DNA from: Clostridia bacterium UC5.1-1E11 | GTDB lineage: Bacteria; Bacillota; Clostridia; Oscillospirales; Acutalibacteraceae | Direction of reading: 5' to 3' | NCBI GenBank assembly: GCA_001305115.1 | Contig: BCAA01000004.1 | Location: forward strand, 124,001-188,000 | DNA length: 64,000 nucleotides | Part shown: in pieces, positions 18,228-64,000 of the stretch | Numbering within the stretch: the first letter of the stretch is position 1 | Layout: each line of letters starts with the position of its first letter | The notes under the pieces: model-generated | Seen by the model: only the letters and a program-made list of their open reading frames with translations | What the model was told of the DNA's origin: nothing | Databases searched by the model: none | Program-made: the position numbers and the translations under genes

Positions 18228-18492
18228 ATAAAGAAAAGGCGATGACGGGAATAAGACTTGCGTTTTTTCTTCAGAGAGCCAGCGGTTGGTGTGAGTTGGT
18301 GGGAAGGCGTTGGTGTATAGCTCATCCCTGAGCTGCCGGTTTGATTGGTTTGCGTAGAACCGGACGTATGGCTGCGTTATAAGCAAAGGCCTTGTTGGAG
18401 GCTGAAGGGCGCGTAAGCGCTGAATTTGGGTGGTACCGCGGATTTATAAATTCGCCCCGAACTTTCTGAGGAAGGTTCGGGGATTTTTTATT
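18228..18492 (+). promoter_or_regulatory. T-box leader, leucine specifier CTC
   Basis: The T-box sequence GGGTGGTACCGCGG is at 18428-18441 and the terminator hairpin (CCCCGAAC...GTTCGGGG, then ATTTTTT) at about 18458-18490. Stem I contains GAGAGCC and the specifier region CTC-ATCCC-TGAGC. CTC at 18321-18323 is a Leu codon, matching leuA downstream. Uncharged tRNA-Leu is expected to favour the antiterminator. Confidence 0.9.
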
Positions 18493-34289: not shown

Positions 34290-34477
34290 AGATAAATACT
34301 GCTTCCTGTAATATGGAGAGCAGATTCGTTGCTGTTCTTTATTCAAAGACAGCAGGCGCATTGCGTAATGGGGTTTCCCAGCCTGCCGAGGATAGAGCCG
34401 CAGAACATGTTTTGCTGTGTTAAACAGCGTGAGAATGTGTTTTACGCCCTTCCCGGTTTGGGAAGGGCTTTTTCTTT
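34290..34477 (+). promoter_or_regulatory. Ribosomal protein L10 leader with terminator
   Basis: A structured leader between rplA and rplJ contains the conserved-type CCTGCCGAGGAT and ends in a terminator (GCCCTTCCC / GGGAAGGGC at 34446-34468, then TTTTTCTTT). This is the arrangement of the L10 leader, where L10(L12)4 binding represses rplJL. The assignment rests on position and the GCCGAGG element. Confidence 0.8.
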
Positions 34478-34524
34478 GCTCCGTCCCCATGGGAATGTTA
34501 TTTTGGTTACGGAGGTGAATCCAT

Positions 34525-54598: not shown

Positions 54599-54879
54599 TT
54601 AGTTTTAGGAAATGTTCGCATTTTGTCCCAAAGATTATGTAAAGCAATTTTTTTGAAATTTTTCCACGGAATTGCACAGCAACTTTTCCAGCTCTAGTGG
54701 AAAAGTGGGCGGAAACAGAGGAAAATGCCGCTCTATCTTGTGGAAAACTCAGTGGAAAATGTGGAATACCATAATTCCCGCAAAATATGGAGGGTTTAGG
54801 CCTATGGAAATTATGTAAAGCTCTGACAACACCATACTGAAAAGTTTGATTCTCTGCAATCTTTCTGTAAAAAGAGGCT

Positions 54880-54907
54880 TGCAACTCGATACAATATATG
54901 GTAGAAT
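54880..54907 (+). promoter_or_regulatory. Promoter of tRNA-Gly
   Basis: TTGCAA (54880-54885) and TAGAAT (54902-54907) are 16 bases apart, 33 bases before the tRNA. Confidence 0.6.
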
Positions 54908-54940
54908 AGTAAAGCTTTCAAAAAAAGTTTTATAGTATAT

Positions 54941-55014
54941 GCGGCTGTAGTTCATCGGTAGAATAGAAGCTTCCCAAGCTTCGGAGGTGGGTTCGACTCC
55001 CATCAGCCGCTCCA
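54941..55014 (+). tRNA. tRNA-Gly (anticodon CCC)
   Basis: The acceptor stem GCGGCTG/CAGCCGC, T loop GTTCGACTC, and anticodon stem-loop GAAGC-TTCCCAA-GCTTC fold as a standard tRNA; the anticodon CCC reads the Gly codon GGG. The discriminator T is at 55011 and CCA is encoded (55012-55014). It stands alone with its own promoter and terminator. Confidence 0.97.
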
Positions 55015-55054
55015 AAGCTACGGTATGTCTTGCACATACCGTAGCTTTCTTTTT
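55014..55054 (+). terminator. Terminator of tRNA-Gly
   Basis: AAAGCTACGGTATGT/ACATACCGTAGCTTT, a perfect 15-bp stem with a 5-base loop, then CTTTTTG. Confidence 0.92.
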
Positions 55055-55895
55055 GTTGCAAATCGTGGTGGCTACTTCCGCATTTTCGCCATAGGACAGA
55101 GGATTCATTCCGATCATTCGCGTTCGTACAAAAGATAAGACGATAAGACACCGAAATTACAACGAATTTCCGTAATATGGCATAGAGATTCTTTGCTATA
55201 GAATCGTGCAGAGCTTTATTCCTGCTTCTATTGTGATGGTTTATCACAATAAAACTTGCCATAGATCATCCGATTATTCGTACAAATATAGGATTTAAAC
55301 ACGATTCATCAATCCCAAAACAACCATTTTACCGCAGATTTGCTACGGTTGAACGATCCCTGATATGATACAAAAGGAGTGGGGGAGTTTACACCAAAGC
55401 CGTGGAGTTCCCTTTTTTCAAGGGTATCACCCCACTGTACTTTAAGCCCAAAATAGAGCTTCTCTTCTGATCGCATAATTTGTCGCTTGTAAATAAAAAT
55501 AGACCGGTGGGGAGCCTCGGATAGGCTGACAGGCTTGATAAGCTTTTCATTGAATTCGTATGCAAGAGAATGGTAGAATTTCCTTTTGTCCCTGAAAATC
55601 CTATACTAAAGAAGATCAGAAACGAGAAACGCAAAAATAGAGATTGTTTAAGATTTGTGGGAAAAGTCAAAAGAATAAAAGGGTGCTTTTGCAAAAGATT
55701 CATTTGTTTGATGTCTTTTCTACCAGCCTACTTTTAACCAAAACAACCCAAGTTTTGTCTGGCTTAGTGTTGTTTCGGTAGAATCTGCCAAAAATCGCCT
55801 CGATCGGTTGACGGACTACACATCCTTCCTCTACAATAAAGATACAAATCGCATGTTTTCATGTGTGCAAAAGATCTGAGGAGGAATTCATACTT
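55055..55895. other. Long AT-rich gap, possible transposase remnant
   Basis: About 840 bases without a supported gene. On the minus strand a short frame at about 55700-55840 includes CVVRQPIEAIFGRFYRNN, reminiscent of the C-terminal region of some transposases, but no catalytic motif or ends are visible. The rest (55060-55690) shows nothing I can assign. Confidence 0.3.
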
Positions 55896-56771
55896 ATGAA
55901 AAAGATGTCCCGTGCGCTCCTGTCCGCTGTTTTAACAGTCGCTCTGCTGCTGTCTCTCGCTGCGTGCAGCAATGCGGACAACCATTCCAGCACCGTTTCT
56001 TCCGAGTCTGTTTCTACGGCTGAAACCAGTTCTGAAGCATCCAGCACCGTTTCCGATGCTTCGGAAAGCAAGCCGATCGGTATCATTACTGCAATGTCTA
56101 ATGAATTGGCGATGTTGCTTGAAAAAGCTGAAATCAGCGAAACCAAAACCATCGGTGGCGTGGATTACAACATCGGGACATTGGAAGGTCAAGATGTTGT
56201 CCTTGTACAGGGCGGTATCGGAAAATCTATGGCAGCCGCGGGTACAACGGTTTTGATTAATGAATTTGATGTGAAATCCATCATCTTCACAGGGATTGCC
56301 GGTGGAGTAGGCGATGAAGTTCAGGTTTTGGACGAGGTCATTGCAACAGATTTGGTATTCCACGATTATGGCAATCAGACAAACGATGGATTTGTTTGGG
56401 ACGCAGCGGCAGGCGTCAATGAAGATGGCACCATTCCTGTAGATGAAGAACTCAGCAAGAAAGCGTATGAAGCAGCCGTTTCCGTTCTGGGGGAGGATCA
56501 TGTATTCCAGGGCCGCATTGCTACAGGCGATCAGTTTGTTGCCAGTGCAGAGTATGTCACTTATCTACAGGAAGAGTTTGACGCTATTGCCTGCGAGATG
56601 GAGGGGGCGGCAGTTGCGCGCATTGCTGCTCAATATGAAGTTCCTTGCTGTGTTATTCGCGCGATGTCGGACAAGGCAGACGGTGCTGCACATGACACCT
56701 ATGAGAACTTTGGTGATACAGCCGCCGACAATTCTGCGAGCATTGTCCTGGCAATGTTGCAGAGTATGTAA
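55896..56771 (+). CDS. Lipoprotein 5'-methylthioadenosine/S-adenosylhomocysteine nucleosidase
   Basis: The product (291 aa) has a lipoprotein signal with LSLAAC (Cys24), a Ser/Thr/Glu-rich linker (25-58), then a complete MTAN/Pfs nucleoside phosphorylase-fold domain. Catalytic equivalents of the E. coli enzyme are present: Glu70 in IGIITAMSNELAML (Glu12), the EMEGAAVA Glu (Glu174) and the Asp of SDKAD (Asp197). Known MTANs are cytoplasmic and cleave adenine from MTA, SAH or 5'-deoxyadenosine. Here an active enzyme seems to be exported. RBS GAGGAGG at 11 bases. Own terminator. Confidence 0.9.
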   Translation: MKKMSRALLSAVLTVALLLSLAACSNADNHSSTVSSESVSTAETSSEASSTVSDASESKPIGIITAMSNELAMLLEKAEISETKTIGGVDYNIGTLEGQDVVLVQGGIGKSMAAAGTTVLINEFDVKSIIFTGIAGGVGDEVQVLDEVIATDLVFHDYGNQTNDGFVWDAAAGVNEDGTIPVDEELSKKAYEAAVSVLGEDHVFQGRIATGDQFVASAEYVTYLQEEFDAIACEMEGAAVARIAAQYEVPCCVIRAMSDKADGAAHDTYENFGDTAADNSASIVLAMLQSM

Positions 56772-56800: not shown

Positions 56801-56841
56801 AATCCCCCGCAGTCCCAAAACTGCGGGGGATTCTTTTTTTA
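56801..56841 (+). terminator. Terminator of the lipoprotein nucleosidase
   Basis: AATCCCCCGCAGT/ACTGCGGGGGATT with a short loop, followed by CTTTTTTT. Confidence 0.92.

Positions 56842-58150: not shown

Positions 58151-64000
<5,850 letters not shown>

Follow-up and report, generated by a model that had tools for sequence, protein, structure and literature searches.

MTA/SAH nucleosidase (MTAN), which normally acts inside bacterial cells and splits adenine off spent SAM by-products, is regarded as a housekeeping enzyme and as a drug target, and in the available part of one report (PMC7557402) most bacteria are said to possess just one, cytoplasmic, copy. Why would a bacterium encode a copy that appears to be built for export? 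The question arises from a 64,000-nucleotide stretch of the genome of Clostridia bacterium UC5.1-1E11 (contig BCAA01000004.1, positions 124,001 to 188,000; hereafter the window), in which a first-pass annotation, made from the letters alone, had described a catalytically intact MTAN with a lipoprotein signal and had suggested that it scavenges adenine at the cell surface.

A nucleosidase gene with a predicted lipoprotein signal

The open reading frame runs from ATG55896 to TAA56771 on the forward strand and encodes 291 amino acids, with the same limits as in the first-pass annotation. Its flanking signals and N-terminal part are as follows:

55808..55837, + strand: promoter-like site TTGACG-18-TACAAT, 58 bases 5' of the start codon (consensus scan only, 10/12)
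55878..55884, + strand: Shine-Dalgarno sequence GAGGAGG, duplex energy -11.2 kcal/mol
55896..55967, + strand: predicted lipoprotein signal peptide ending in the lipobox L21-A22-A23-C24 (sequence, pattern test and dN/dS)
55968..56069, + strand: Ser/Thr-rich tether, residues 25-58, a low-confidence coil in the AlphaFold2 model
56801..56832, + strand: terminator-like hairpin with a T tail, 13 pairs (pattern scan)

The consensus scan returned 18 promoter-like sites in the scanned tract versus 8.9 in shuffles, and terminator-like sites numbered 6 in the tract versus 4.7 in shuffles, the one at 56801-56832 having the most G-C pairs. The upstream DNA of the closest orthologue (L036) shares both TTGACGG and a GAGGAGG 5' of the start.

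Translation from ATG55896 is well supported. A start after residue 50, downstream of the signal, had been named in advance as evidence against a lipoprotein, and the start codons speak against it. Of 7 in-frame candidate starts, listed from the upstream stop codon as far as residue 80, ATG55896 is the only one with a strong Shine-Dalgarno sequence; the same listing contains no in-frame start at residues 5-66, and the next possible start, residue 67, is located beyond the opening strand of the domain, which the AlphaFold2 model places at 61-65. Together with purifying selection on the signal (below), these are our reasons for preferring ATG55896.

The N-terminus, MKKMSRALLSAVLTVALLLSLAAC, has a positive n-region, a hydrophobic core and a lipobox with its cysteine at residue 24, and it matches a strict Gram-positive lipoprotein pattern. 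The tether that follows is Ser or Thr at 18 of 34 positions, against 10.7% in the enzyme domain. In a comparison with L036, whose domain is 91% identical and for which synonymous sites are near saturation, dN/dS was 0.25 for the signal, 0.32 for the tether and 0.023 for the enzyme domain, values that indicate purifying selection on the signal. The LAAC signal, the Ser/Thr-rich tether and the terminator described in the first-pass annotation were thus all recovered, and we infer from these features that the protein is lipidated at Cys24 and located outside the cytoplasm.

The enzyme domain keeps the MTAN active site and has a rebuilt pocket loop

The remainder of the protein is a complete nucleosidase domain, with the following features:

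56070..56768, + strand: MTAN (PNP_UDP_1) domain, residues 59-291 (Pfam, NCBIfam, AlphaFold2 and PDB matches)
56103..56105, + strand: E70, equivalent of E. coli E12, aligned in 22/24 clade A rows (L048 and L049 are truncated there)
56286..56288, + strand: F131, at the position of E. coli N73, marker of the exported lineage, in 24/24 clade A rows versus 1/95 others
56367..56399, + strand: rebuilt loop YGNQTNDGFVW, residues 158-168, aligned to E. coli residues 100-112
56601..56603, + strand: E236, equivalent of E. coli E174, in 24/24 clade A rows
56670..56672, + strand: D259, equivalent of E. coli D197, in 24/24 clade A rows

Clade A denotes the closest relatives of the window protein, described in the next section. 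The window protein scores 159.1 bits against Pfam PF01048 (cut-off 25.1), 218.9 against NCBIfam NF004079 (cut-off 169) and 143.9 against TIGR01704 (cut-off 73.8). Its AlphaFold2 model (pLDDT 88.3, from a 60-row alignment) has the MTAN fold, superposing on 4f1w_A with Z 31.9 and rmsd 2.7 over 228 aligned residues, and its top PDB matches in Foldseek are MTANs, some of the Helicobacter entries being titled futalosine hydrolase. We take E. coli E12, E174 and D197 to be the MTAN catalytic residues (E12 and D197 are also mentioned in PDB titles); all three are retained, and F214, M235, R255 and S258 align with E. coli F151, M173, R193 and S196. Identity as futalosine hydrolase (MqnB) was considered and rejected, the TIGR03664 score of 98.6 lying under the per-domain cut-off of 124.7.

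Two features set this domain apart. Where most other MTANs have Asn73, clade A has Phe; the one exception among the 95 other rows (L100) has no signal, and Phe is also found here in proteins from Cetobacterium and Persicobacter. The second is the loop at E. coli residues 102-107, which in that enzyme lines the 5' side of the substrate (the 5'-alkylthio pocket). Throughout clade A (24/24 rows) the alignment has gaps at F105-G106-Y107, Gly takes the place of D101 (G159, 24/24 versus 0/95 others) and a Trp is added (W168, 24/24 versus 0/95), yet this loop is variable in ordinary MTANs too. Because the E. coli 101-107 loop is replaced, the substrate may differ from MTA and SAH. The earlier label of a catalytically intact "MTA/SAH nucleosidase" therefore stands as regards profiles and catalytic residues; the specificity it names is an annotation. 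We file the window protein as a predicted MTAN-fold nucleosidase that passes the MTAN profiles, with putative MTA/SAH activity.

Relatives with export signals form a distinct clade

A pattern scan of genome contigs yielded 48 related loci, 17 of which were 51-82% identical and set apart from the remainder at 30-40%. In whole-genome samples, and counting the window's own genome (G000) each time, this group, clade A, was found in 3/398 genomes of the same family (G000, G182, G340), 5/394 of the order (G000, G864, G1004, G1072, G1087) and 3/391 of the class (G000, G503, G627), the domains of G182 and G1087 being identical to those of L036 and L046, respectively. Clade A thus comprises 22 distinct proteins with 24 domains, and it has 100/100 support in a tree of 119 rows. 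Its members from Spirochaetota and Chloroflexota rest on metagenome-assembled genomes and could reflect mis-binning.

Reading of the N-termini revealed a clear signal in 18 of the 22 proteins. Twelve have a lipobox (the window protein, L084, L038, L040, L041, L042, L043, L046, L052, L085, L102 and L133) and six another type of signal peptide (L037, L039, L047, L101, L130 and L131); of the remaining four, L045 has a doubtful signal, L051 lacks one, and L048 and L049 are cut short at the N-terminus. The strict lipoprotein pattern was matched by 8/22 clade A proteins, by 6/7 proteins of a second lineage (clade B, below), and by neither L135 nor any of the other MTAN-like rows (0/87 outside clades A, B and L135); all other signal calls combine a simple rule with N-termini read by eye.

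Several members carry additional domains. L101 has a signal, a Cu_amine_oxidN1 domain and an MTAN domain by Pfam; L130 a signal, a stretch of about 140 residues to which Pfam assigns no domain, and two MTAN domains; and L131 a signal, two MTAN domains and S-layer homology (SLH) domains (1.7e-26). Because SLH domains are cell-surface anchors, the clade A lineage would be expected to work outside the cytoplasm, and the Cu_amine_oxidN1 and SLH architectures of these relatives point to a probable extracytoplasmic function.

The tandem proteins (L130:733-2832, minus strand; L131:541-2760, plus strand) have two complete MTAN domains per chain and may represent enzyme dimers fused within a single polypeptide. 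Three N-truncated clade A copies (L048, L049 and L050) are without the strand that bears the E12 equivalent. A long protein is encoded after each of them; the one after L048 contains three SBP_bac_3 stretches and a permease domain.

MTANs with predicted export signals occur in other lineages and on plasmids

Two further lipoprotein lineages are separate from clade A, and from each other, in the tree: clade B (L007, L068, L086, L087, L089, L094 and L095), a relative of which (L147) is without a signal, and L135. Related genomes thus hold lipoprotein MTANs of at least two lineages besides clade A. An export label (31 exported rows, 88 not) requires at least 4 changes, gains or losses, on the tree, and 0/500 shuffles were as low; the exported rows include L130, mistaken for a lipoprotein on account of an internal ALSC, and the truncated L048 and L049, mislabelled as signal-bearing, and the doubtful L045 also affects the labels. 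The tree was built after leaving out mis-oriented, broken or distant loci (L027, L030, L031, L032, L033, L034, L035 and L092), repeats (L006, L136 and L137) and loci with domains identical to kept rows (L036, L044, L050 and L132); two DeoD-like loci (L082 and L083) and one with an internal stop (L123) were never entered. The sister of L135 (L125, in G676) is an MTAN with an N-terminal hydrophobic stretch and no lipobox, and may be a further membrane-anchored form.

A plasmid search gave 136 matching records, 60 of which were listed across the ranking, and we read the first two. These are MTANs from Cetobacterium somerae plasmid p2 (L226, 44.9% identity) and Persicobacter plasmid 1 (L227, 43.0%), both from records that give a culture as their source. 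Like the window protein they have an N-terminal signal and the FTG marker, and they join clade A at 99/97 in a second tree of chosen rows (18/24 clade A, 5/8 clade B plus L135, 29/87 others and the two plasmid rows); unlike it, they have no lipobox and a loop of ordinary length.

The window protein thus belongs, as far as sequence can tell, to a sparse family of exported MTANs across several bacterial phyla. A survey of genomes with both MTAN types, suggested in the first-pass annotation, found, among the 20 matching loci that were read, an exported MTAN in at least 9/398 genomes of the same family (G000, G182, G340, G018, G183, G263, G323, G397 and G404), 8 of the 9 having another MTAN-type paralogue. 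The lineage markers FTG and HDYG...GF-W could help annotation to separate exported from cytoplasmic MTANs, which NF004079 names alike.

Comparison with known MTANs

An exported MTAN had seemed anomalous in the first-pass annotation; the signal-bearing copy is confirmed, and exported MTANs have precedents. Borrelia burgdorferi has the exported MTANs Bgp (BB0588) and MtnN (BBI06) beside a cytoplasmic Pfs, and a supply of transportable adenine is proposed as the role of such surface enzymes (PMC7557402, available part). Bgp is described as surface-exposed in the accessible portion of PMC13325309. The window genome resembles this arrangement in having a signal-bearing MTAN and a second MTAN. In pairwise comparison, outside the tree, the Borrelia/Borreliella plasmid rows listed are about 26-32% identical to the window protein, and PDB 4l0m is 27% identical. 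The Borrelia enzymes are placed on or near the spirochaete surface, and a Ser/Thr-tethered lipoprotein form is unmentioned in the part of PMC7557402 at hand.

Aeromonas hydrophila has an exported, periplasmic MTAN beside a cytoplasmic one (Xu et al. 2017, as cited in the available part of PMC6302742). Its PDB entries are 5b7g, 5b7n, 5b7p and 5b7q, the last of which also names the periplasmic MTAN in its title. The 5b7q fold is that of the window model (Z 30.0, rmsd 2.1, 229 aligned) at 25% identity, and a sequence search, likewise pairwise and outside the tree, aligns only domain residues 2-93 at 45 bits. This enzyme is not known to have a lipoprotein anchor. Cytoplasmic MTANs (Pfs/MtnN; E. 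coli b0159, and L001 of the window's own genome) share with the window protein the fold, the three catalytic residues and the four further equivalent residues listed above, and differ in having no signal and tether, in Asn73 and in the unreplaced 101-107 loop without the added Trp. No lipoprotein or S-layer-anchored MTAN from Bacillota was present among the matches listed in a search of titles and abstract starts of the openly licensed literature. To the known exported MTANs the present lineage adds a Bacillota branch that apparently extends to other phyla; its architectures include lipoproteins, stalk-like forms and S-layer proteins, some of its enzymes are in tandem, and its loop is rebuilt.

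Paralogues, purine salvage and LuxS

The window's own genome also encodes an ordinary MTAN without a signal (L001), which passes the curated MTAN cut-offs, a DeoD phosphorylase (L003) and an MTAN-like gene split over two frames (G000:C5:65109-65778; L004, L005). The genus mate G002 has an MTAN-like gene with a similar start (L216:8992-9684), near element-like genes downstream of thrS and a tRNA.

Among the nine clade A genomes, a second MTAN-type paralogue is clear in four (G000, G340, G1072 and G1087), more distant in two (G627 and G1004) and not recognised in three (G182, G864 and G503). All six clade B genomes examined have one by BLAST assignment (N-termini were read for two of the six), and in G1033, the genome of the third lineage (99% complete), the lipoprotein is the only PF01048 match. 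A division into inside and outside copies is therefore common but not universal, and a strict one fits poorly.

Adenine is the likelier gain for the window's organism, because the genome has an NCS2-type permease with a putative purine substrate and the methylthioribose kinase model found no match in this 93%-complete assembly. One NCS2 permease (G000:C6:33283-34454) is matched in two pieces. A LuxS-like gene is likewise split over two frames (G000:C3:153903-154309; L138, L139); both could be assembly indels or decayed genes. LuxS is fully matched in G627, gives only a short, sub-threshold match in G182 and has no match in G864, G503 or G1033.

Proposed function and its alternatives

The activity, substrate and physiological role that we infer for the window protein are as follows. 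The general secretion route would export the enzyme, which would be lipidated at Cys24 and held outside by the Ser/Thr-rich tether. There it would hydrolyse the adenine-sugar bond of MTA, SAH, 5'-deoxyadenosine or a close relative through the standard MTAN catalytic residues, acting on substrate that the host or the neighbouring community supplies. Freed adenine would enter through the purine permease for salvage; as the genome gave no match for methylthioribose kinase, the sugar part would probably stay outside or go to other users; and internal by-products would be handled by the ordinary MTAN encoded elsewhere. Such an exported, membrane-anchored, adenine-releasing nucleosidase is, as an overall shape, a reading we mildly favour. 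Against it count the replaced 101-107 loop, the lack of any conserved transporter or salvage neighbour, the clade A proteins without a clear signal (L051, L048, L049 and L045), the genomes in which the exported copy had no recognised partner (G182, G864, G503 and G1033) and the occurrence of the marker Phe in the signal-less L100. Its parts carry different weight: export of the predicted lipoprotein is very likely, activity on some 5'-modified adenosine is likely, MTA, SAH or 5'-deoxyadenosine is probably the main substrate, and for adenine scavenging as the main role we see an even balance. Of the surface scavenging proposed in the first-pass annotation, the intact MTAN built as an extracytoplasmic lipoprotein has held up and adenine release is plausible, while MTA/SAH specificity remains conditional.

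Suitable substrates do occur outside cells: in the available parts of the sources, a Synechococcus salvage mutant builds up 5'-deoxyadenosine in its medium (PMC8102628), compounds then called 5'-deoxy-nucleosides are reported in urine at 1-300 uM, and E. coli Pfs acts on both MTA and 5'-deoxyadenosine (both PMC10986504).

The rebuilt loop allows a different emphasis, in which the exported enzyme takes another 5' group, on a bulkier or plain adenosine derivative. We consider this unlikely but a serious contender. The clade-wide G159 and W168 and the gapped F105-G106-Y107 columns speak for it, as do slightly high futalosine hydrolase scores, 86-99 bits in six clade A proteins versus 64-88 in 13 others (L131 scored per domain). 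These ranges overlap, however, and all the scores are below 124.7 per domain; the six clade A proteins all score above both MTAN cut-offs, and the loop's variability in ordinary MTANs weakens the argument further. Quite improbable, in our estimate, is a quenching or detoxifying role, in which inhibitory 5'-deoxyadenosine, MTA or SAH outside the cell is destroyed, or the flow of autoinducer precursors altered, rather than adenine supplied. The patchy occurrence of LuxS among these genomes fits it badly, even with the frame-split LuxS-like gene of the window's own genome in its favour, and extracellular SAH is not known to be a source of autoinducer. On the side of detoxification, 5'-deoxyadenosine inhibits radical SAM enzymes (PMC8102628, available part).

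The precedent of Bgp, an exported MTAN that binds glycosaminoglycans (PMC7557402, available part), suggests a moonlighting surface adhesin with secondary enzyme activity. The S-layer and Cu_amine_oxidN1 architectures would suit the surface location that this needs; the kept catalytic residues and the strong purifying selection on the domain (dN/dS 0.023) are what is expected of an enzyme, and we consider an adhesin very improbable. We give least credence to a cytoplasmic protein, produced by a downstream start or with an unused signal. The signal-less relatives L051 and L147, and G1033 with its lipoprotein as sole PF01048 match, are the points in its favour, to be set against the lack of in-frame starts at residues 5-66, the unique strong Shine-Dalgarno sequence at ATG55896, purifying selection on the signal and the surface-anchoring domains of relatives.

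Beyond the favoured reading of an exported, adenine-releasing nucleosidase, we tentatively entertain a broader and rather doubtful picture: exported MTANs with the N73-to-Phe change would make up a subfamily of long standing, dispersed by horizontal transfer over Bacillota, Spirochaetota, Chloroflexota, Fusobacteriota and Bacteroidota, its main clade having a rebuilt 5' loop and being displayed as lipoprotein, stalk or SLH tandem. Its members would be dedicated community-level enzymes for 5'-deoxyadenosine or another excreted adenosine derivative, not relocated housekeeping enzymes. Gut and rumen communities are rich in radical SAM enzymes, and the exported lineage, with S-layer domains in one of its members, suggests that 5'-modified adenosines serve there as a common resource outside the cell or pose a common hazard.

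Genomic setting of the nucleosidase gene

The gene lies in a variable tract bounded by a tRNA gene:

54941..55014, + strand: tRNA-Gly (ccc), found by ARAGORN

DNA homology to the genus mate G002 extends from about 54603 to 55024, stopping just past this tRNA; beyond the break, the G002 genes resemble a recombinase-bearing element, judged by reading their translations. The genus mates G001, G002 and G003 gave no clade A match. Acquisition of the nucleosidase gene by transfer fits this end of homology and this absence from the genus mates. Insertion by a tRNA-targeting integrase is not supported by an attachment repeat, as the 3'-terminal 20, 16 and 14 bases of the tRNA have no exact copy in the window outside the tRNA itself. 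A virus origin was rejected, a search of the viral collection with the peptide patterns having hit no contig.

An AraC/GyrI-like regulator (Pfam) lies downstream, confirming the adjacency noted in the first-pass annotation. A functional or operon link was rejected, because the terminator-like hairpin stands between the two genes and relatives of the AraC protein (64% identity) in G001 and G003 sit at other places, where the neighbours listed include no MTAN. Flanking proteins were clustered for 18 loci and then again for 20. The largest cluster besides MTAN was shared by 5/20 loci and consists of generic regulators (AraC-type or response-regulator, by reading), including the AraC protein of the window; the other clusters shown were common to two or three of the 20. 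No conserved transporter or salvage neighbour emerged from either clustering. A Pfam search of ten neighbours identified YkuD, TMEM164, Beta_helix, YegS_C, Antibiotic_NAT and alpha/beta hydrolase domains and two fused chains of amino-acid-type binding protein and permease, and left two without a match. The nucleosidase thus appears unlinked to any common partner, with at most a weak tie to AraC-type regulators.

Elsewhere in the window, a T-box leader (18233-18462) and a ribosomal protein L10 leader (34325-34483) score above their gathering thresholds, and 58959-61655 encodes a long glycoside hydrolase of family GH2 whose N-terminus looks like a signal and which includes a Laminin_G_3 domain, its end overlapped by a further long frame that continues beyond it.
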